Below are positions 16,762-25,817 of a DNA stretch of 32,560 nt, in pieces. Within the stretch, counting starts at the first letter, position 1; each line of letters starts with the position of its first letter. A program made the position numbers and the translations under genes. Source of the stretch: Terriglobia bacterium (lineage in GTDB: Bacteria > Acidobacteriota > Terriglobia > UBA7540); NCBI GenBank assembly GCA_030037755.1, contig JASHQD010000554.1, forward strand, positions 1 through 32,560. The letters run 5' to 3'. A model generated the notes under the pieces. That model did not search any database. It worked only from the letters and a program-made list of their open reading frames with translations, and had not been told where the DNA came from.

Positions 16762-19194
16762 TCAGCCCGCTGCCGCCTTCTCACTGGCCTCCACGTATGA
16801 CGCGAGATCGCGCCAGAAGGCCTTGCAATCAATGTCGCCGCTCGCCGGCACCCTGAGCGCCCAATCGATTTTCGACCATTGCCGGGCGGACAGCGCCTCT
16901 TGCAAAGCGCGAGTCGCGATGCCCGCGTTCCCGGGCCCGAGCGCCCGCAGCCGCTCCGCGCCCAGGAACCGCAGCAAGCGGTCGATATGCAGCCGGAACG
17001 GACCTGATTCTCGCGTGCTGCCTTGCTGAAGGAAGAGAAAGAGGACTGCAAGCGAATTGGCAATCCGGGCCTCGATGGTGCGCCCCGGCATGCCGCCGTC
17101 CGGCTCCAACATGGCGGCCAGCTTGATCTGCACCTCCTCGATGCTCTCGCCCGGCGCGGCGGTATCCTCGGCGCTGGTGCGTCGCCTTGAGAGCGAGCCG
17201 AGCGACGCGAACAGGCGATGGCGCGCCTGTGTGGGCAGATTGCGTACTTTGGAAGCAGCTTCGCTGACCCCGAGTAAGAATTCTCCCGTGATGTGATCAG
17301 CGTCGGCCATCGCAGCCCGAGGCGGTGCGCTGAGCGGCATGGCGGCGGATGCAAAATAGCTGGCGAACAGTGTGTCCTGCGCCATGCCGACCGGGACCAC
17401 ACGGGTGGTGGGTATTTCGCCCTCCAGGTCTCCGGCACGCTTCAGCACCGCGACCAGCGACATCTCGGGATTCCCGAGACCGAACTCGCGCCCCAGTTCC
17501 TCCAGAAGTGCGGTAGCGCGCGAGGATTCGCTGCGCGCCACCGCGCCGTGCCTCTCGCGCGGAAGATAGCGGCTCTCGAGATCGCTGATGATTCGCGAGC
17601 CCTGCAGGAGTTTCAGCGTATTGCCGAGAGGTCCGGCAAAAGACAGCGGAAAGCTGAGGTGCTTCTGACCTTCCTGCCACTCGATTTGCAGCAGCGCATC
17701 ACGGCTCGAGGGAGTTTCACCCATGACCAGGAGCGGAGTACCCTGATGCACGAAGCGGGTGGGCTCGGGCGCGATTCGAGCACCTTCCACGGCAGCCACC
17801 GATGCGCAGACTCCTTCAGCGATCGGCCGTCCGACCGCCGCGAATAACTCGACCGCAGGCAGATCGACGCGCTCGTTCGGCGTGAGAAATCGGCTCACAC
17901 CGCCCGTCTGACCGGCGAGTTGGGCGAGGAACCTGTCCTGGCTGGCGCTGCCGATGCCCAGGCAGTGCACTCGCGCTCCAATGGAGCGCACCCGCTCGAG
18001 AATCACTTCCGTTCCGAACACCTGGCCGTCGGTGAGGATGAGAATGTCTCCCTGCGCATCGCCAAGTAATTTCGCCGCGGCTTCTATACCGCCGGCGATC
18101 TGGGTGCCTCCGCGCGCTTCGATTCCGTCCAGGAACTTGCGGGCGCTGCCTCGATTCTTCGCCGCGCCGTCGCATAGCTTTGTCTTGAAAACCTCGGTGT
18201 GATCGTCGAACGCCACGAGGCCGAACTGGTCGGTGGGCTCGAGGGCGGCCAGGCAGGCTTCGATGGCCTTCCTGGCCTGCGTGAGCGGAACGCCTTTCAT
18301 CGATCCCGACCGGTCAAGCAAGATCACAACGCGCCGCGCGCCGCAGGGCGCAGCTCCGAATTCCGTAGACGGGACGATGAGCGCAAAGCGTCCTTTGCCG
18401 CTCGGGTCCACGCCAGACAGCACAGTTGCGCCGGCGTGTTTCGTCCTGACATCCAGCACCAGGTCGCGGTCGGGTAGATCGCTCTGCCGCGCCAGCGAGA
18501 CCGAACTCTGCCCGCCGGCTTTCCCGTGCACGCGCAAGGTGTGGGAGGGCGATGCGATCTCTTCGGTCTCGCCGGCGTCCATTTCGAGGCAGAATCCGAC
18601 CTGGTGCAGATGGGGCGCGTCTGCGGTGAACCGGGGCAGGATGATGTCGCCGAATTCCTCCGGTGGCAGCTCCATCTCGCCGACGCCCGGCTCGACCTCG
18701 ATCGCGCGAGCGCTGGCATGATAGGCCGGGGCGAGAGTGAAGGGAAAACGCAGCCGCAGGCCACGGTCGTGCAGCTCGACGCCCGCGAGCATTTCGAGCA
18801 ACACCGTGACCTTCTCGTGCGGACGAATGTTGCCCACGGTGAGATTCACGAGACCGTCGCCGTACTGCCGCGTCAAAGCCGCCAGCGATCCCGCTCGGAT
18901 GCCGTCTTCATAAGCCTTGACAGCCTCTGCCGTAGGACGCAGCTCGGAATCGACGGTGAAATCCTCGGCGCGGACGCGAAATCGCCGCAGAGCGGCGTCA
19001 CGGGGCAGAGCGAAGCTGTAAATCACCTCCACCGGCTTGCTCTCATCGGACTGGAATTCGTGTGCGACCCAGAGGCGCGCTCCAACGGGAAGCACGCGCC
19101 CGGTCAGCCAGAGCCGCTGCATCGCCAGCTTGAGCGGCTCTTGGGTGGATTGGGTTCGCGGTACAAAACCTGCGGCGGCCTGAGCGTGTGGCAT
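16762..19194 (-). CDS. VIT and von Willebrand factor A domain protein
   Basis: An 810-aa protein with an N-terminal VIT (inter-alpha-trypsin inhibitor) domain, about residues 25-160 ('LTGRVLPVGARLWVAHEF', 'IYSFALPRDAALRRF', 'AYEDGIRAGSLAALTRQ'). A vWA domain spans about 287-460 with an intact metal-ion site: 'DRSGS' (D294, S296, S298), T364 in 'GGTQIAGG' and D389 in 'LTDGQ'. The C-terminal 350 residues are helical and not recognised. No signal peptide, membrane segment or sortase motif is visible, unlike secreted VIT/vWA proteins, so it is probably cytoplasmic and may assemble a complex through metal-dependent binding. AAGGAGGA six bases before ATG supports the start. It lies 60 bp downstream of a MerR gene, so the pair is likely one operon. 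Function unknown. Confidence 0.9.
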   Translation of the reverse strand: MPHAQAAAGFVPRTQSTQEPLKLAMQRLWLTGRVLPVGARLWVAHEFQSDESKPVEVIYSFALPRDAALRRFRVRAEDFTVDSELRPTAEAVKAYEDGIRAGSLAALTRQYGDGLVNLTVGNIRPHEKVTVLLEMLAGVELHDRGLRLRFPFTLAPAYHASARAIEVEPGVGEMELPPEEFGDIILPRFTADAPHLHQVGFCLEMDAGETEEIASPSHTLRVHGKAGGQSSVSLARQSDLPDRDLVLDVRTKHAGATVLSGVDPSGKGRFALIVPSTEFGAAPCGARRVVILLDRSGSMKGVPLTQARKAIEACLAALEPTDQFGLVAFDDHTEVFKTKLCDGAAKNRGSARKFLDGIEARGGTQIAGGIEAAAKLLGDAQGDILILTDGQVFGTEVILERVRSIGARVHCLGIGSASQDRFLAQLAGQTGGVSRFLTPNERVDLPAVELFAAVGRPIAEGVCASVAAVEGARIAPEPTRFVHQGTPLLVMGETPSSRDALLQIEWQEGQKHLSFPLSFAGPLGNTLKLLQGSRIISDLESRYLPRERHGAVARSESSRATALLEELGREFGLGNPEMSLVAVLKRAGDLEGEIPTTRVVPVGMAQDTLFASYFASAAMPLSAPPRAAMADADHITGEFLLGVSEAASKVRNLPTQARHRLFASLGSLSRRRTSAEDTAAPGESIEEVQIKLAAMLEPDGGMPGRTIEARIANSLAVLFLFLQQGSTRESGPFRLHIDRLLRFLGAERLRALGPGNAGIATRALQEALSARQWSKIDWALRVPASGDIDCKAFWRDLASYVEASEKAAAG

Positions 19195-19254: not shown

Positions 19255-19701
19255 CTATGAGCGCCGGCCTTTCTCTTCGATCTCATCGCGCCTGTTTCCA
19301 TCTTCCAGTTCGCGCGCCAGCCGTTGGAGCACGGACCTGATCTGCCGCGTTCGCCACGGAGCGCCTCCGGTGCGCACCTGCACGACCACGTCAGGCGCGA
19401 GGGTGTATTGCAGCCACGGCTCCGGCTCCGGAAGCCGCGGCGTCGCGGCAGCGTCGCCCTGCCGCTCGATCTCCGCCAGTGTCAGGCCGCCGTGCTGACG
19501 GCGCTGGATTTCGCGGAGGCGGTCCAGGTGTCCGGCTGTGTAGAAAGCGCCGCGCCCTCCGCGCGCCGGTGGGCCAAGCAAGCCGCGCGCAATGTAATAG
19601 CGGATCGTCCGCTCCGGTACGCCGGACTCCGCGGCAAGCGCCATCAGGCTGAACTCGGGTTGGCGCGGCTTCGTGCAATCGGGTTGAGCTTTACGAGTCA
19701 T
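19255..19701 (-). CDS. MerR-family transcriptional regulator
   Basis: A 148-aa regulator with an N-terminal MerR winged helix: 'FSLMALAAESGVPERTIRYY' with its turn helix, 'IARGLLGPPARGGRGAFYT' (wing) and 'LDRLREIQRRQHGGLTLAEI' (helix leading to the dimerisation coil). There is no Cys cluster for metal binding. The C-terminal 60 residues are short, with a 'VVQVRTGGAPWRTRQIRSVL' segment, so the ligand is not evident. It is encoded just upstream of the VIT/vWA gene on the same strand and is expected to regulate that operon. A -35 TTGACA with a 17-bp spacer and an inverted repeat precede it. Confidence 0.92.
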   Translation of the reverse strand: MTRKAQPDCTKPRQPEFSLMALAAESGVPERTIRYYIARGLLGPPARGGRGAFYTAGHLDRLREIQRRQHGGLTLAEIERQGDAAATPRLPEPEPWLQYTLAPDVVVQVRTGGAPWRTRQIRSVLQRLARELEDGNRRDEIEEKGRRS

Positions 19702-19718
19702 AGCCCGCTACAGATGAG

Positions 19719-19770
19719 AACGTATCAACAAAACACGACAGTGTCAAGTAGTGTCGTATATTGGATACGA
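19719..19770 (-). promoter_or_regulatory. Promoter and inverted repeat upstream of merR
   Basis: On the minus strand TTGACA (19742-19747) is followed after 17 bp by TACGTT (19719-19724), a perfect -35 with a weak -10. This predicts transcription starting about ten bases before the ATG at 19701. Just upstream, TCGTAT and ATACGA (19754-19759 and 19765-19770) form a 6-bp inverted repeat with a 5-bp spacer, and an ACGACA/TGTCGT pair overlaps the -35 element. Either could be the MerR operator. Confidence 0.5.
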
Positions 19771-19814
19771 ATTGGATGGAGAGGCTTTGCTGAAATCTAG
19801 ACGGCTGAGGAGTG

Positions 19815-19956
19815 GAGTCGTCGCGACTCACGGGCAGCCAACGGCTGCGAAGGCTCAGAATGACATGATTGGAGGCTTTTGCATCGTCCTGTTGACCGGC
19901 AACTGACAGTGGCAAGCGGCAAGGGATAAGCTTCCCACTCGCCACTTGCCACTTCA
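19815..19956. repeat. Short palindromes and heptamer hairpin in the merR/91-aa gene gap
   Basis: The 285-bp gap at 19702-19986 has no gene. It holds GAGTCG/CGACTC (19815-19829), GCAGCC/GGCTGC (19834-19848) and a heptamer array at 19908-19956 (AGTGGCA, AGCGGCA, ..., CACTTGC, CACTTCA). The array's two halves are inverted: 19908-19920 and 19941-19953 pair at 12 of 13 bases. The first part resembles dispersed palindromic elements that read as 'CHSEPSQ' in translation, also seen at 23249-23297. Confidence 0.6.
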
Positions 19957-19986
19957 AAAGTGCAGGTCCAGTGCGAATCGACGGGC

Positions 19987-20262
19987 TCAGCCCGCGACCT
20001 TGATAACCGGGAAGGGCGGCAGGGGTCCCGGGCAACCGGTCGTCGAGAGCGTATATTCCCCGTCCTGGGCTCCGTCGGCGACCTGCGCCGCACATCGGCC
20101 CGGATTGCCCCCCTGCGCTGCCGGCACGTCGTAGCTTAGGGCGGCAAGAGGAGGATTACAGTTTGTAACTTGCACGTCCTGGCTTGTGTTGTTGACAAAA
20201 TCGAACTGGTCTCCTGGTGAAAATGTATAGGTATCTCCGCTGCAGCAGTCGACATCTGACAT
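19987..20262 (-). CDS. 91-aa Cys-containing protein of unknown function, kinase-linked
   Basis: A 91-aa protein with no signal peptide or membrane segment. It begins 'MSDVDCCSGDTYTFSPGDQF' and contains five Cys (C6, C7, C35, C57, C77). The pattern of a 'YTFSPGDQFDFVNN' strand pair, a middle Pro/Ala/Gly-rich loop and 'DGEYTLSTTGC' near the end resembles a small beta-barrel of cupredoxin-like design without the His copper ligands. This is a fold impression, not a family match. The start is very well supported by AAGGAGG eight bases upstream. It lies 52 bp downstream of the Ser/Thr kinase on the same strand, with a 6-bp GC hairpin between them, so it is probably co-transcribed and could be a kinase partner or substrate (inference). 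Confidence 0.75.
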   Translation of the reverse strand: MSDVDCCSGDTYTFSPGDQFDFVNNTSQDVQVTNCNPPLAALSYDVPAAQGGNPGRCAAQVADGAQDGEYTLSTTGCPGPLPPFPVIKVAG

Positions 20263-20285
20263 TTCCTTTACCTCCTTAACTGTAA

Positions 20286-20304
20286 CGGCGGTCTATGGCC
20301 GCCG
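20286..20304 (-). promoter_or_regulatory. GC hairpin between kinase stop and the 91-aa gene
   Basis: CGGCGG and CCGCCG (6-bp arms, 7-base loop) lie in the 52-bp gap, just upstream of the strong ribosome-binding site of the small gene. There is no T tract, so it is not a rho-independent terminator; it could be an mRNA processing or stability site that favours separate expression of the small protein. Confidence 0.4.
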
Positions 20305-20314
20305 AATCGCGTGC

Positions 20315-23050
20315 TCACTTGCGTCCGAGCAATTGCCTGTACCTCGGATCATCATGAAGGTTGTTGAACTCCGGCGCGTGGTCGATGACGTAGGGCGAGT
20401 AGCCGGCCGCCACGGCCTTTGCGAGCCACTCCAGCGCCACTTCCGTCTCGCCGAGGTCGTTGTATACCTCGCCGGCCTGAAACTGTATGCTCTGGTCCAG
20501 ACGCCCGAAGGCCAGCGCCCGGTTCAGATCCTCTTTGGCCTTGTCCTTCTCGCCAAGCATGGCGTGATAGCTCGCCAGGAATGCCAGCACGGAGGCGTCA
20601 TTCGGATTGACTTTCAGAGCGTCTTCGTCCAATTCTACTGCGCGACGGTAGAGCGTCATAGCCCGCGCGCGATCGCCGGCGTAGTAGCAGGCGTCAGCGA
20701 GATATCCCCAGCTGTCCGCCGCGTTGGGGTCCAGTCTGACCTTCTCCTCGAACTCGCGCACCGCCTTGCGATAGTCGCCCTGCAGGAAGTAAGCGGTGCC
20801 GAGGACCGCGTAGGCTGTTTCTGACGGCTGGATCTCGATCGAACGCTCGAGGGCGCTGGTAGCACCCTTCACATCGTCCAGGGCCAGATCCATAGCGCCG
20901 ACATTCACATATCCCTGATAGCTGTCGGGAGCCATTTCGATAACCTTTTGAAACATGTCCCGCGCTTTGGAATAGTCCTGCTGGTTATAGTAGAAGATCG
21001 CGAGCTTGTTGTAGGCGTACCAGTATCCCGGCCGCAGGCTGATCGCGTGCTGGTAAGTCTTCTCCGCATCACCCGGACGATTCAAGTTGATGTAAGCCTG
21101 CGCCAGGTTGTCATAGGCCCGATCGCTCGTGGGATCAAGCTGGACCGCGAGCTGAAACTGGGCGGCAGCGGTCGTGTAGTCGCCCGTGCCGTTGGCCAAC
21201 GTTCCCAGGCATTGGTGCCCTTCCGCGCCGGAATTCCCCAGCGCGATGGCTTGCGCGCAGGCTGTCCGCGCCGGCTCAATCCACTGCTGATCCTTCGTGG
21301 AAGCATACTGGGTCCAGTACGCTTCCCCCAGGGCTGCCTCTGCGAGCCCGAACCGCGGGTCGAGTCTCACCGCCTCCCGCAGGGTCTCCACCGCGCTCGA
21401 AAGCTTGGCCGGATCAAGGGACTCCTGGAGGTAGCCGATTCCTTGCACGTAGAAGTCATATGCGGCGGAGCTGCGTGTCCCGCGGAAGGATTCCGCTCGT
21501 CGCTCCTCGGAGCCCAGCCCGAGATCAAGGGACTGCGCGACACTTTCGAGGACGCGATCCTCAAGTGCGATCAAGTCGGAATCGGGCGCCGCGACAGAGT
21601 CACCGCGGATAGCACTGCCGGTCCTGGCGTCAATCAGGGTGTAGCTGACCCGCGTAATGCCGTCAGCACGCTGCAAGTCGATCTCGAGCCCCACATTCGA
21701 GCCGAACTGGCGGCGCGCCTGATCGAGCGTGGTAATGTGCTTTTCGCGGACGATGATGGCGGGCGTGATCTGGAATGACCGGCCCAGTGTTAACTGGACC
21801 AGACGAGCCGTTAGTTCGTTGGCGATGCCGTTGCCGAATGCCACCAGTTTGGGATCGGAAATGATCCCCGTAAAGGGCAGGACTACCAGATTCACGGGAC
21901 GCGGAAGCGCCGGCGCATGGGAACGATTCAGCACTCTATCGGCACGGGCGATTATCCAGCCGCGAGACGCCGGGCGTGCGAGGGCGAGAAGACTGACGGC
22001 CAGCAGACCACCCACAAGCAGCATCAGCAGTTGACGCCGATCGCGTTTCTTGGGCGTTCGAGTTCGCTTGGGGACGGTTTCCACTTCCAGGCCAGTCTCC
22101 AGGAGCTCCAAATCCGCGCGCAGCTCGGCGGACGCCCGATAGCGTTCGTCCGGATTCTTGGCAAGGCACTTCTCGATCAAGTCCACGAATGCCGTCGGCA
22201 GGTTTGGGTTCAATCGAGCAGCAGGCTCCGGGTCATGGTTGATAATGGCGTTTGAAACCGCGAGAAGCGTCGCTCCCTTAAAGGCGCGGGATCCCGTCGC
22301 CATCTCGTAAAGGACCGCGCCCAGGCTGAAAATGTCCGTGCGCTCGTCAACGGGCTCGCCGAGAGCCTGCTCGGGGGACATATAAGCGATGGTGCCCAGG
22401 AGCGACCCTGGATTCGTCAGCTCGCGCTCTTCTGCTGAAATCGTGGGATTGTTCTCCAGACCCCAGCTGATGGCACTCGTCTCATCAGGATCGGCGCTGC
22501 CACCTACGCCCGCTTTCTCGCGCGCCAGCGGTTTGCGCTTCGCCAGCCCGAAGTCCAGGATCTTTGCCCGGCCGCGCGTGGTCACAAAGAGATTCGCCGG
22601 CTTAAGGTCCCGGTGGATCACTCCTTGCTGGTGAGCGGCGTCCAAGGCGCCCGCAATCTGTGTTCCCCAATCCAGGATTTGCGGGAACTCGAGCGGCGCG
22701 GGGGCGACCTCTGCAAGCTTGTCGCGCAGAGTGCTTCCCTCGAGGAGCTCCATCGCGATAAAAGGCTGGCCATTCCACTCGCCTATTTCGAAAATTGTGC
22801 AGATCCCGGGGTGGTTCAGAGCGGCGACTGCCTGGGCCTCACGGCGAAAGCGTTGCAGAACGTCCGCGCGGCTCAAGCCGCTGCCCGATGAGACTCCCGA
22901 TGTGAGCGACAGCGGAAGGAATTTCAGAGCCACGAAGCGCCTGAGGTCCAGATCCTGTGCACGGTACACTTCCCCCATGCCGCCGGCGCCGAGTCGATCA
23001 AGCACCGAGTAATGGGATATCCTTAGCCCTTCGAAGCCTTGTTCCCCCAT
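20315..23050 (-). CDS. Transmembrane Ser/Thr protein kinase with TolB-like and TPR regions
   Basis: A 911-aa Hanks-type (PknB-like) kinase. The kinase domain covers residues 14-315: glycine loop 'GAGGMGEVY' (21-29), 'VALKFL' with K43, catalytic 'HRDLKPAN' (D148), 'DFGLA' (D166) and 'SPEQ' (225-228). An insertion of about 45 residues lies between the DFG and APE-like motifs. A membrane helix follows at 340-360 ('LLMLLVGGLLAVSLLALA'). The outer part starts with a TolB/FlgO-like domain ('VVLPFTGIISDPKLVAFGNG'), then about eight TPR units from residue 540 to the end ('AYDNLAQAYINLNRPGDAE', 'YAYNKLAIFYYNQQDYSKA'). Such kinases are abundant in Acidobacteriota and presumably couple an external or periplasmic protein-binding signal to cytoplasmic phosphorylation. 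The -10 element sits nine bases before the ATG, so the mRNA is nearly leaderless. Confidence 0.95.
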   Translation of the reverse strand: MGEQGFEGLRISHYSVLDRLGAGGMGEVYRAQDLDLRRFVALKFLPLSLTSGVSSGSGLSRADVLQRFRREAQAVAALNHPGICTIFEIGEWNGQPFIAMELLEGSTLRDKLAEVAPAPLEFPQILDWGTQIAGALDAAHQQGVIHRDLKPANLFVTTRGRAKILDFGLAKRKPLAREKAGVGGSADPDETSAISWGLENNPTISAEERELTNPGSLLGTIAYMSPEQALGEPVDERTDIFSLGAVLYEMATGSRAFKGATLLAVSNAIINHDPEPAARLNPNLPTAFVDLIEKCLAKNPDERYRASAELRADLELLETGLEVETVPKRTRTPKKRDRRQLLMLLVGGLLAVSLLALARPASRGWIIARADRVLNRSHAPALPRPVNLVVLPFTGIISDPKLVAFGNGIANELTARLVQLTLGRSFQITPAIIVREKHITTLDQARRQFGSNVGLEIDLQRADGITRVSYTLIDARTGSAIRGDSVAAPDSDLIALEDRVLESVAQSLDLGLGSEERRAESFRGTRSSAAYDFYVQGIGYLQESLDPAKLSSAVETLREAVRLDPRFGLAEAALGEAYWTQYASTKDQQWIEPARTACAQAIALGNSGAEGHQCLGTLANGTGDYTTAAAQFQLAVQLDPTSDRAYDNLAQAYINLNRPGDAEKTYQHAISLRPGYWYAYNKLAIFYYNQQDYSKARDMFQKVIEMAPDSYQGYVNVGAMDLALDDVKGATSALERSIEIQPSETAYAVLGTAYFLQGDYRKAVREFEEKVRLDPNAADSWGYLADACYYAGDRARAMTLYRRAVELDEDALKVNPNDASVLAFLASYHAMLGEKDKAKEDLNRALAFGRLDQSIQFQAGEVYNDLGETEVALEWLAKAVAAGYSPYVIDHAPEFNNLHDDPRYRQLLGRK

Positions 23051-23059
23051 TTGGCGCCG

Positions 23060-23145
23060 ATGTTACGCCCGCTGTGGGAACCTGTCAATATTTCATAGTG
23101 TCAGGTTAATCGAGTAGATATAATTCTGACAGGTAAACTACCTGT
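23060..23145 (-). promoter_or_regulatory. Promoter and palindromic site of the kinase operon
   Basis: On the minus strand a perfect -35 TTGACA (23083-23088), 17-bp spacer and TAACAT (23060-23065) form a good sigma70-type promoter. The start point is predicted about three bases before the ATG at 23050. Upstream, ACAGGTA and TACCTGT (23129-23135 and 23139-23145) form a perfect 7-bp inverted repeat with a 3-bp spacer. Also ACCTGTCA (23080-23087), overlapping the -35, pairs with TGACAGGT (23127-23134), so a regulator could bridge the two. Confidence 0.55.
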
Positions 23146-23248
23146 GCCGGTACCCTCGTTATCGAATTCCGCTTTTTCTCGCGCAAGCTATTCTGTGCGG
23201 CTTAGAAGGGTGTTGAAAGGCGTCTTCGATTCACGCCTTTCCGGGCGC

Positions 23249-23516
23249 AGCGAGGAATCTCGCTTCTGAGAATAAATCACTGATAAGATTCCTCGCTTCG
23301 CTCGGAATGATATGAATCGGGGTTTTCATGACCCTGTTGGATGATGAGGTGTCGGCCGTTGTGCAGCACCGTTGACTTCCAGGATTCTTTGGTTCCCCTT
23401 GCACGCGCTGAAGCGGCGGTGTCCCCACCGCCGCCGCCGCCGCGAGAATCTTGTGATTGAGGCGCCACCATGGAGGACACGGGCGCCTGGCGACGCCGGG
23501 GACAGCGCCGCTACAG
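23249..23516. repeat. Dispersed palindromic repeats in the kinase/isomerase gap
   Basis: The 466-bp gap 23051-23516 has no gene. Besides the kinase promoter it contains a 12-bp inverted repeat (agcgaggaatct at 23249-23260 and its complement at 23286-23297), of the 'SEARNL/CHSERSEES'-reading type, and a 9-bp one (GCGGCGGTG at 23413-23421 with CACCGCCGC at 23426-23434). The latter runs into a CCG triplet tract, and a further GCGCTGTCCCCGG-like segment (minus strand) reaches the isomerase stop. These look like degraded REP elements. Confidence 0.6.
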
Positions 23517-24929
23517 CTACGCGTCAGCGTGCTGGTAGACTTGCCAGCCTTTGTAGTTACCGAGCGCGTCCGCGACGGCTTTGCCGAAATGGCTCCGGTT
23601 CACCGCCACGTGATGCTCGAAGCCGTTGCGGCAGACGTATTGCAACAGGCGCTGCAGTTCGGGAATCCGGACCACGCCGTAGCCGCCGAAGCTCTGCGGA
23701 CGATCGTCCGTGATCTCGCCTTCGCCGCAGTAGGCGCGCATCTTGCCCTGCAGATCGTCGGTGGACACGCGGCAGTAGGTCAGGGGTCCGCTCTTCAGCT
23801 TGCCGACGACCGTGCCGAAGGTGTTGTCCTTGCCCACGGAGCCCGCGATGATCTCCTGAAAATCCATCTTGAAATCTTCGAAGAAGTGCTTCGGCAGATT
23901 GGAGCAGTGGAAGATCACGCACTTGTTGGGATCGTCGCCGTAATTGTTGTTCCAATCGACGATGGCGCTGGGTTCGCCGGCCGCGAGCTGCAGGATGTAC
24001 ATGGCGATCATACCGATCATGTCGGTCTCGCAAGCGCTCGGCAGCAGATGGTTCGACATCATGCTCATCAGCGTGCACGGCACCACGCCGAAGTATTCCT
24101 CCATCGCCGTCCAGCACTGAATCGACGTGCCGGCCAGCTGATTGTCCTGAATCCAGCCATCGACCACCGCGCCGAACTTCGCCATCTTCATAAGCGATGC
24201 CGGCGGGATGCCGCGCGTGTCGACATAGCCCTGAATGCCGGCGAGCTTGGCAGTCGCTTTCGAGTCGTCGTCCTTCATGCGCGCCACGCGTCCCATCACT
24301 TCCGAAAGATCGAGCGTCTCCACGGTGATGCCGTGGTTCTCCATGAGTTTTTCGCTGAAACGTACCGTGTTGAACGCTGCCGGACGCGCGCCGATCACGC
24401 CCACGCGCGTGTTCTTCAGGCCCTTGACGATCCGGGAGGTCGCGGCGAAGCTCTTGAGATCAGCCTTGAACCCCGGCGACGAGGGCGCTTGCGTGTGCCG
24501 GGAGGTAAGCGAGAACTTGATTCCGTACTGCCAGAGGTTATTGCACACCGACATCTTGCCGCAGAAACTGTCGCGGCGCGAGCCCATCAACATGTTGTCG
24601 GCAGCGTCGGGAAAGGCATGCACCAGGACCGGCACGTCGAGTCCGGCGAAGCGCAGCGTGTTGGCGACCGCGCGCTCGTCGCCGAAATTGGGCAGCGTGA
24701 CCAGCACGCCGTCGATCTCGTCGCGATGCTGCTGGAACAGGTCGGCACATTTACGCGCCTCGGCGAGGCTTTCTACGGCACCGTACTTGGTGTCTTCCGG
24801 AGTCAGGCAGATCGCCTTGTAACCCTCAGTCTCGAGAAGGCGCAGAATCTCCTCACGCCCGTCACGAACCAGCGCAGCCGGAAAAAATCCACGATTCCCG
24901 ACGATTACGCCAAAAGTAGCAGAACTCAT
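23517..24929 (-). CDS. L-fucose/L-arabinose isomerase-fold protein (probable arabinose isomerase replacement)
   Basis: A 470-aa member of the fucose isomerase-like superfamily, which interconverts aldoses and ketoses using a divalent metal. Typical parts are the N-terminal Rossmann-like segment 'FGVIVGNRGFFPAALVRDG', 'GVLVTLPNFGDERAVANTL' in the second domain, and 'SRRDSFCGKMSVCNN'. Candidate metal ligands are Glu in 'WTAMEEYFG', Asp in 'ACETDMIG' and His in 'VIFHCSNLP'. Its place directly after araB and araD on the same strand, with no classical AraA nearby, suggests it produces L-ribulose from L-arabinose; a different aldose is possible. GGGGAGGA just upstream of ATG supports the start. The 231-bp gap to araD contains a heptamer array. 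Confidence 0.88.
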   Translation of the reverse strand: MSSATFGVIVGNRGFFPAALVRDGREEILRLLETEGYKAICLTPEDTKYGAVESLAEARKCADLFQQHRDEIDGVLVTLPNFGDERAVANTLRFAGLDVPVLVHAFPDAADNMLMGSRRDSFCGKMSVCNNLWQYGIKFSLTSRHTQAPSSPGFKADLKSFAATSRIVKGLKNTRVGVIGARPAAFNTVRFSEKLMENHGITVETLDLSEVMGRVARMKDDDSKATAKLAGIQGYVDTRGIPPASLMKMAKFGAVVDGWIQDNQLAGTSIQCWTAMEEYFGVVPCTLMSMMSNHLLPSACETDMIGMIAMYILQLAAGEPSAIVDWNNNYGDDPNKCVIFHCSNLPKHFFEDFKMDFQEIIAGSVGKDNTFGTVVGKLKSGPLTYCRVSTDDLQGKMRAYCGEGEITDDRPQSFGGYGVVRIPELQRLLQYVCRNGFEHHVAVNRSHFGKAVADALGNYKGWQVYQHADA

Positions 24930-25044: not shown

Positions 25045-25174
25045 CATTCCAGATTCCAGCTTCCAGATTCCAGACTTCTGAGTTCTGGCTTCATACTTCT
25101 GGCTTCATACTTCTGGCCTCATACTTCTGACTTCGTACTTCCGATTTCATCCTTCTGATTTCATCCTTCGTTCT
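25045..25174. repeat. Heptamer array invading the araD 3' end
   Basis: About eighteen units in exact 7-bp register, moving from GATTCCA type to TACTTCT/GGCTTCA alternation (a 14-bp higher-order repeat) and then GATTTCA/TCCTTCT. On the minus strand it lies between araD and the isomerase. It covers the araD stop codon (25161-25163) and the three codons before it, so the last residues 'NEG' after the family-typical end 'YGQ' come from repeat sequence. The rest of the gap 24930-25044 shows nothing besides the isomerase ribosome-binding site. Confidence 0.85.
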
Positions 25175-25817
25175 GCCCGTAGGTGGAGTGATACCTGTCG
25201 TACCACTTCTTCACTTCCGACGGCGGCAAGGGCTTTGGCTGGCCGAGTTGCAGCGCGAGATGACACGTGCGCGACACATCCTCCACCATCACGGCAGCCT
25301 TGAACGCCGCCGCGACCGTGGGGCCGAAGGCAAATACTCCGTGATTCGCCAGCAGCACGACGGGCGATCTGCCGGCCGCGGCAATCACCGCCTCGCCGAT
25401 GTGGTCGCCGATGTTGTCGACGTAGGGCGCGCAGGGAATTTCGTCGCCGAATTCATCCGCGATCGCCGTCAGATACGCCGGAATCGAGCGTCCGAGCATG
25501 GCAAGGGCGGTGGCGTGATTCGAATGCGTGTGAATCACGCCACCGGTATCCGGCCGGTGTCTGTAGATATACAGATGATGCGGCAAATCGACGGACGGCT
25601 TCCATTTCCCGCGCACCTTCTTGCCTTCGAGATCCGTCACGACCAGGTCAGCGGGCTTCATCTTGTCGTAATCCATGCCACTCGGCTTGATGATCACCAA
25701 TCCGCGCTCCCGATCGATGCCGCTGGCGTTGCCGCTGTGCATGGTCACGAGTCCGGCGCGATAGATCCCCTGGTTAGCCTCCCAGACTTGCCGCCGAAGT
25801 TGGTCCAAGCTGGCCAT
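25161..25817 (-). CDS. araD: L-ribulose-5-phosphate 4-epimerase
   Basis: A 218-aa class II aldolase-family epimerase converting L-ribulose 5-phosphate to D-xylulose 5-phosphate, the last step of L-arabinose use. The phosphate/substrate motifs 'HSGNASG' (27-33) and 'IKPSGMDY' (43-50) are present. The zinc site has H96 and H98 in 'VIHTHSNH' and H159 in 'LLANHG'; D77 in 'SVDLPHH' and Y213 in 'STYGQ' match the catalytic Asp and C-terminal Tyr of E. coli AraD. Length is close to the 231 aa of E. coli. The final 'NEG' is a repeat-derived extension. It lies 86 bp downstream of araB, a gap that also holds a small heptamer array. No clear ribosome-binding site precedes the ATG. Confidence 0.93.
   Translation of the reverse strand: MASLDQLRRQVWEANQGIYRAGLVTMHSGNASGIDRERGLVIIKPSGMDYDKMKPADLVVTDLEGKKVRGKWKPSVDLPHHLYIYRHRPDTGGVIHTHSNHATALAMLGRSIPAYLTAIADEFGDEIPCAPYVDNIGDHIGEAVIAAAGRSPVVLLANHGVFAFGPTVAAAFKAAVMVEDVSRTCHLALQLGQPKPLPPSEVKKWYDRYHSTYGQNEG

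Follow-up and report, generated by a model that had tools for sequence, protein, structure and literature searches.

Small-protein genes beside receptor-type Ser/Thr kinases with tetratricopeptide repeats in Terriglobia and other classes of Acidobacteriota

Introduction

PknS of Xanthomonas citri is described, in the part of its published account that is available (PMC13147305), as a transmembrane Hanks-type kinase with a cytoplasmic kinase domain and periplasmic tetratricopeptide repeats (TPRs), which phosphorylates the sigma factor EcfK (ECF43) encoded by a neighbouring gene; its activation via the periplasmic region is left there to future work. Likewise, the available part of PMC8999054 reports sigma factors of group ECF43 (ECF, extracytoplasmic function) as paired with neighbouring Ser/Thr kinases. 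Here we describe a stretch of 32,560 nucleotides from a Terriglobia bacterium of the phylum Acidobacteriota (contig JASHQD010000554.1 of assembly GCA_030037755.1, positions 1 to 32,560), hereafter the window, which encodes a receptor-type Ser/Thr kinase and, directly behind it, a protein of 91 amino acids (aa). The window kinase has the same build as PknS, as far as that source describes it, and is likewise paired with a neighbour gene. The difference is that the PknS target is a sigma factor and the partner in the window is a small protein; a search of the window for such a sigma gene, made with the sigma protein of locus L232, gave no match at E 1e-3. Small partners are also unmentioned in the available part of PMC8999054, and in that module the kinase stands with an ECF sigma gene, of which none was found near the window kinase. 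Among 27 kinases of this build, five have such a gene on their upstream side; one of these five matches is partial.

We found that small-protein genes are very probably linked to this kinase build. A gene retained next to TPR receptor kinases across the class, and beyond it in the phylum, offers a specific candidate for an on/off switch, and the family would unite many small open reading frames (ORFs) that fit no Pfam model. In the open-licence literature of PubMed Central we found no account of a small cupredoxin-like partner of such kinases, and the finding suggests that a signalling partner in bacteria has gone unrecognised.

Conservation of the small gene

The small gene, which encodes the window-type partner protein, is located at 19987-20262 on the minus strand, behind the kinase gene (20315-23050, minus strand) and separated from it by a spacer of 52 bp (20263-20314), as the first-pass annotation of this DNA had described. 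The 91-aa ORF is a real gene, because a 71%-identical copy is present behind the orthologous kinase and the dN/dS ratio (nonsynonymous to synonymous substitution rates) is 0.15-0.26. This copy, an 89-aa ORF, comes from the only other genome available for the genus (2/2 positive), where it lies 43 bp behind a 70%-identical kinase. Over 89 codons the two genes differ at 20, 13 and 40 first, second and third codon positions, with dN 0.19, dS 1.28 and dN/dS 0.15 by NG86, and dN 0.21, dS 0.83 and dN/dS 0.26 by YN00; for the kinase and its genus-mate ortholog, dN was 0.21 and dS 1.68 (NG86). Distant relatives beside the same kinase type, described below, add to this evidence. The annotation would have given up its proposal had the ORF not been conserved in relatives, and the genus copy shows that it is.

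The ribosome-binding site AGGAGG of the small gene (20271-20276, minus strand) was identified from the sequence and by a motif scan 8 nt before the ATG, and is as strong as had been noted. The protein contains five Cys (residues 6, 7, 35, 57 and 77) and no His, and a hydropathy search of the first 45 residues gave no hydrophobic export segment (best 15-residue mean 0.37), so that the annotated five Cys and missing export signal both hold. The hairpin proposed between the two genes did not survive: the spacer RNA folds no better than chance (z -0.83), and 45 of 200 dinucleotide shuffles folded equally well or better. No terminator-like site was present in a scan of 19650-23550, the spacer included, which is compatible with co-transcription of kinase and small gene without showing it.

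The window protein is nearly isolated by sequence, not by position. When 101 genomes were searched with it, nothing beyond the protein itself and the genus copy was better than E 0.017; a two-sequence profile in 39 genomes of its own family gave nothing better than E 0.011, and no PDB chain scored below E 1.1. The 91-aa protein matched nothing in Pfam, NCBIfam or PADLOC, whose defence models also left two family members unmatched, and an Rfam search and a plasmid tblastn yielded nothing useful. We rejected L014 as a homologue (45% identity over residues 32-74), for the match lies inside a 616-aa ORF, AMP-ligase-like by eye, and involves a DGAQDGEY string present in both. Matches in relatives at E 0.01-0.1 (tblastn with the window protein) and E 0.01-1 (profile) were taken as chance; one of these, L020 (E 0.08), turned out to be behind a kinase.

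Linkage of small-protein genes to the kinases

The kinase build considered here consists of a kinase domain, one membrane segment, a region called TolB-like and TPRs. Kinases like P0002 were found in 67 of the 399 genomes of the class (E <= 1e-110). Our set of 70 kinases comprises 68 of the 78 rows of the class search and two further kinases; the ten rows left unexamined were two at contig edges and eight weaker or shorter matches. In a simple scan, an ORF with a nearby ribosome-binding motif was present behind 61/70 kinases, and at 45/70 loci the motif had five or six letters and the ORF 91-219 aa. From the ORFs behind kinases and from convergent loci, 40 sequences were chosen by eye as the main family, A2, in which W48, F58, P63, Y91, Y93 and D103 are near-invariant and P104 is invariant.

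A hidden Markov model (HMM) of A2 was then applied with a jackknife, in which training rows with a blastp E <= 1e-3 to the tested ORF were taken out. The jackknifed HMM recovered a family ORF in 50/70 downstream stretches at E <= 0.01 (47 at 1e-3, 43 at 1e-5), and in none of 27 upstream stretches. The control comprised 19 stretches behind other kinases of the window genome, cut at guessed kinase ends; the result is given as 0/15 because four of the 19 hold nothing past the kinase stop, and one further stretch holds only 326 nt. Divided by training status, the recovered loci were 39 of the 40 A2 loci (L156 was missed) and 11 of the 30 loci outside A2. At three loci (L132, L155 and L159) the family ORF runs towards the kinase in convergent orientation, and two family ORFs are present in each of L105, L106, L134 and L155.

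The linkage extends beyond the training set. Among 61 relatives, 22/27 family matches adjoin a match to P0002, most of these being training loci. A family match at E <= 0.001 was present in 107/399 genomes of the class, and the 19 strong class matches outside A2 (E <= 3e-9) were located beside a kinase in 11 cases, elsewhere in 5 and at contig edges in 3; of 20 loci read for this, 10 had a kinase match. In the phylum search 16/396 genomes were positive, which, minus the window's own genome, left 16 matches in 15 genomes outside the class, and for 11 of these 16 the neighbour is a kinase homologue, with its TPR part next to the match (L278, L279, L281, L282, L284, L285, L287, L288, L289, L290 and L292, the last convergent). 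For the others, L286 stands beside an ORF that by eye looks like TPRs, no such neighbour is seen at L280, L283 and L293, and L291 is doubtful.

Pfam and NCBIfam scans of the family members gave only families that each matched a single member, with best E values of 0.0028 and 0.0035. Several loci showed features of their own. The non-exported members L103, L104, L100 and L020 have an N-terminal Lys/Arg-rich tail of 15-20 residues. The short ORF behind the kinase of L135 (G336) begins Lys-rich and finishes in GDPQVIV, so that it resembles a partner gene with its middle part lost. Three loci of lower-scoring matches in family f6 were read (L185, L187 and L212); in both of those inspected for neighbours, L185 (G058) and L187 (G043), a family relative of about 90 aa adjoins a fatty-acid-desaturase-like gene (by eye). 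The orphan members L164 (G029) and L166 (G011) lie near a primase-like gene.

Window-type proteins

The window protein and its genus copy were combined in a two-sequence HMM, which was run against the 824 ORFs of the stretch set. The first non-self matches were the second ORF of L143 (1.6e-6), L122 (3.7e-4), L138 (9.4e-4) and the second ORF of L122 (4.6e-3), all of which sit behind kinases of this build, and the best upstream or control ORF reached only E 0.91. A profile of this window type, A4, matched 8/399 class genomes at E <= 0.01, five of which had been used in building it. G147 is new (E 5.6e-5): its protein, of 204 aa, is encoded immediately after the TPR portion of a kinase homologue. 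The matches in G397 (0.0027) and G093 (0.0047) lie at loci without a kinase and are probably due to chance. The window type thus adjoins a kinase in 6/6 credible genomes, so that homologues lying mainly away from kinases, the other outcome on which the first-pass annotation would have withdrawn, are not what is seen for this type; in the wider family, members away from kinases do exist. In the G147 protein (L232:1426-2646) a first half of window type is joined to a second half whose terminal DPEVVIM recalls the main family, and an ECF sigma-like gene follows.

In a tree of 58 kinases, which does not include that of G147, the window pair forms a clade with L121 and L122 (SH-aLRT 100), which L138, L143 and L096 join at the next level (99); families f1, f6 and f10 are represented. 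Five of these seven kinases have a window-type partner by HMM (L043, L093, L122, L138 and L143); for L121 and L096 the likeness was judged by eye, and the L096 partner also matches the main family. We regard the window protein as a sister type of the main A2 family, which we take to be fast-diverging; its own tie to A2 is weak at the level of profile comparison.

Fold of the small proteins

Cupredoxins headed the structural matches of the main family, none of which is significant alone. With the A2 profile, 27 PDB chains scored E <= 10; 21 of them were cupredoxin or ephrin (two ephrin chains), several being variants of one protein, and the best E was 0.039. The profile of the non-exported subset gave four chains, nitrite reductase and ephrin (three ephrin chains; best E 0.024), and that of the exported subset gave 19, nine of them cupredoxins, with amicyanin first (E 0.013) and eight plastocyanins. 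The two subsets are homologous to each other (hhalign 99.2%, E 3.7e-19). Since chains of CD2, which has an immunoglobulin fold, were also in the exported-subset list, together with others, another beta sandwich stays possible.

The family differs from plastocyanin and amicyanin, its top and non-significant matches, in having no near-invariant copper ligands, in its many members without export signal, and in the window type, which is unmatched. A look for copper ligands found no His in the window protein and only W, F, P, Y, Y, D and P at the near-invariant A2 columns. The profile matches hint at a cupredoxin-like fold without a copper site, which is likely for the main family, and the window protein may be cupredoxin-like as well. 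A structure prediction of the window protein alone had a mean predicted local distance difference test score (pLDDT) of 40.7, too low to be informative. The compact beta fold that had been suggested for the window protein thus gains weak profile matches through the main family and none through its own type.

Co-variation and compartments

Mirror-tree comparison used 61 of the 70 pairs, nine being left out for want of a partner. Partner similarity correlated with that of the TolB-like region at 0.375, of the TPRs at 0.289 and of the catalytic domain at 0.236; given the catalytic domain, the TolB-like correlation was 0.34, a value reached by 0/999 permutations. The corresponding correlations (TolB-like, TPR, catalytic) were 0.48, 0.32 and 0.31 for non-exported partners and 0.375, 0.377 and 0.285 for exported partners. 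The order is the same in the former and nearly so in the latter, and the domain correlations therefore do not sort the compartments.

An export-type segment was detected in 22/61 partners, or 24/61 after two were re-labelled by eye, leaving 37/61 without one. Mapped on the kinase tree, the compartment label changes nine times, against a mean of 17.8 for shuffled labels. Lys and Arg are richer before than after the membrane segment in 13/23 kinases with exported partners and in 27/37 with non-exported partners (40/60 in total).

Role of the small protein

We tentatively propose that the small protein is a dedicated regulator, a regulatory subunit, of the adjacent kinase. It would be made from its own strong ribosome-binding site, perhaps at the high level that such a site suggests, and would bind the kinase and set its output, the binding and the direction of control both belonging to the proposal. 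Exported members would bind the TolB-like or TPR part of the kinase, and members without a signal, the window protein included, would act from the cytoplasmic side. In favour of the proposal are the linkage counts inside and outside the training set, the persistence of the linkage with convergent or doubled genes, the position of the kinases with window-type partners in one supported clade, and the higher correlation of partner similarity with the TolB-like region than with the TPRs or the catalytic domain. In its broadest version, the proposal would cover an unnamed, phylum-wide class of small proteins with a cupredoxin fold, each a dedicated subunit or ligand of a TPR kinase; the class would have moved several times between cytoplasm and envelope without leaving its kinase, and would control it from either side of the membrane. 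As a whole this version is doubtful. The dedicated partner of a TPR kinase suggested in the first-pass annotation is strongly supported as linkage; the roles it offered, substrate, inhibitor or sensor, are not distinguished by these data.

Instead of regulating the kinase, the small protein might act downstream of it, as its dedicated effector or phosphorylation substrate. The window protein and the 37/61 partners without an export segment could meet a cytoplasmic kinase domain, the strong ribosome-binding site would suit an abundant substrate, and the target phosphorylated by PknS, in the available part of its description, is the product of an adjacent gene (PMC13147305). The 24/61 partners that look exported would, however, be beyond the reach of the kinase domain, and an S/T-P-F stretch of the family is not preserved in the window protein; on balance we consider a substrate rather unlikely. 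Rather unlikely, too, is an independent function, such as binding of a metal, a sugar or an envelope component, in a protein merely co-regulated with the kinase. Cupredoxin-like folds frequently bind ligands, the window protein has five Cys, orphan members exist, and nine compartment changes on the kinase tree would suit such a protein. Against it, the family has no near-invariant metal-binding residue, and the linkage holds across classes and also in L132, L155 and L159, whose convergent genes cannot share a transcript. We consider it very improbable that the association has no functional meaning and stems only from common ancestry or from the way the genes were picked: the training set was indeed chosen by eye from loci behind kinases, and a search with the window protein alone yields a single clear homologue, but the count of 50/70 stands against 0/27 upstream and 0/15 in the control, 11/30 loci outside the training set and 11/16 matches outside the class were recovered, and the linkage is kept where the genes are inverted or doubled.

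Several observations weigh against a dedicated regulator of cupredoxin-like fold. The A2 HMM misses 20/70 stretches, the window's own among them (L043 and L093, which are the window pair, L094, L099, L101, L102, L107, L121, L122, L131, L135, L138, L139, L141, L143, L152, L154, L156, L158 and L160). The window protein matches the extended HMM of the main family only at E 0.74 and had no match at 0.1 in the jackknife scan, window type and main family align with an hhalign probability of 19% (P 0.0012, not significant), and the window-type profile gives no PDB match. Three other TPR-kinase matches of the window genome (contigs 353, 270 and 59) have no family ORF behind them. Low-scoring short relatives, one per genome, are common away from kinases in family f6, so that membership in the wider family does not require a kinase neighbour. 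The orphans L166 (G011) and L164 (G029) occur in genomes with one kinase each (L099 and L094) that lacks such a neighbour; each orphan and its lone kinase may be a pair at a distance, but an adjacent pair (L115) is present in G029 as well, and nothing can be concluded from two cases. The domain correlations could arise from differing rates. Finally, kinase topology is alike for exported and non-exported partners, so that one binding site cannot serve all members, whichever compartment the partner has.

Window kinase and neighbouring genes

The window kinase (911 aa) was identified by Pfam Pkinase (E 5e-41), several TPR models and its catalytic motifs, of which the G-loop, VALK, HRDLKPxN, DFG and SPE are intact. 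All its parts lie on the minus strand: the kinase domain (about residues 10-325, 22076-23023; Pfam and NCBIfam matches and motifs), a single predicted membrane segment (about residues 339-358, 21978-22036), a region without listed family match between that segment and the TPRs, which we take to be TolB-like (about residues 385-545, 21416-21898), and the TPR region (about residues 549-908, 20327-21406; TPR matches), predicted to be outside the cytoplasm from the one membrane segment. The hydropathy scan predicts one peak at about residue 339 and no second, and a membrane segment is present after the kinase domain in 69/70 kinases of this build; the remaining one is a partial ORF. In PADLOC the window kinase matches many kinase models through its kinase domain, chiefly PD-T4-6 (E 1.1e-79).

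A promoter-like site (TTGACA, 17 nt, TAACAT) is located before the kinase at 23060-23088 on the minus strand; it comes from a consensus scan that gave 4 sites in the region and 1.2 in shuffles, and is not evidence of function. On the same strand as the kinase, 16762-19194 encodes a VIT/VWA-domain protein and 19255-19701, just before it, a MerR-type regulator. Upstream of the kinase, also on the minus strand, are a fucose-isomerase-like gene (23517-24929) and a class II aldolase-like gene (25161-25817), which suggest sugar metabolism.

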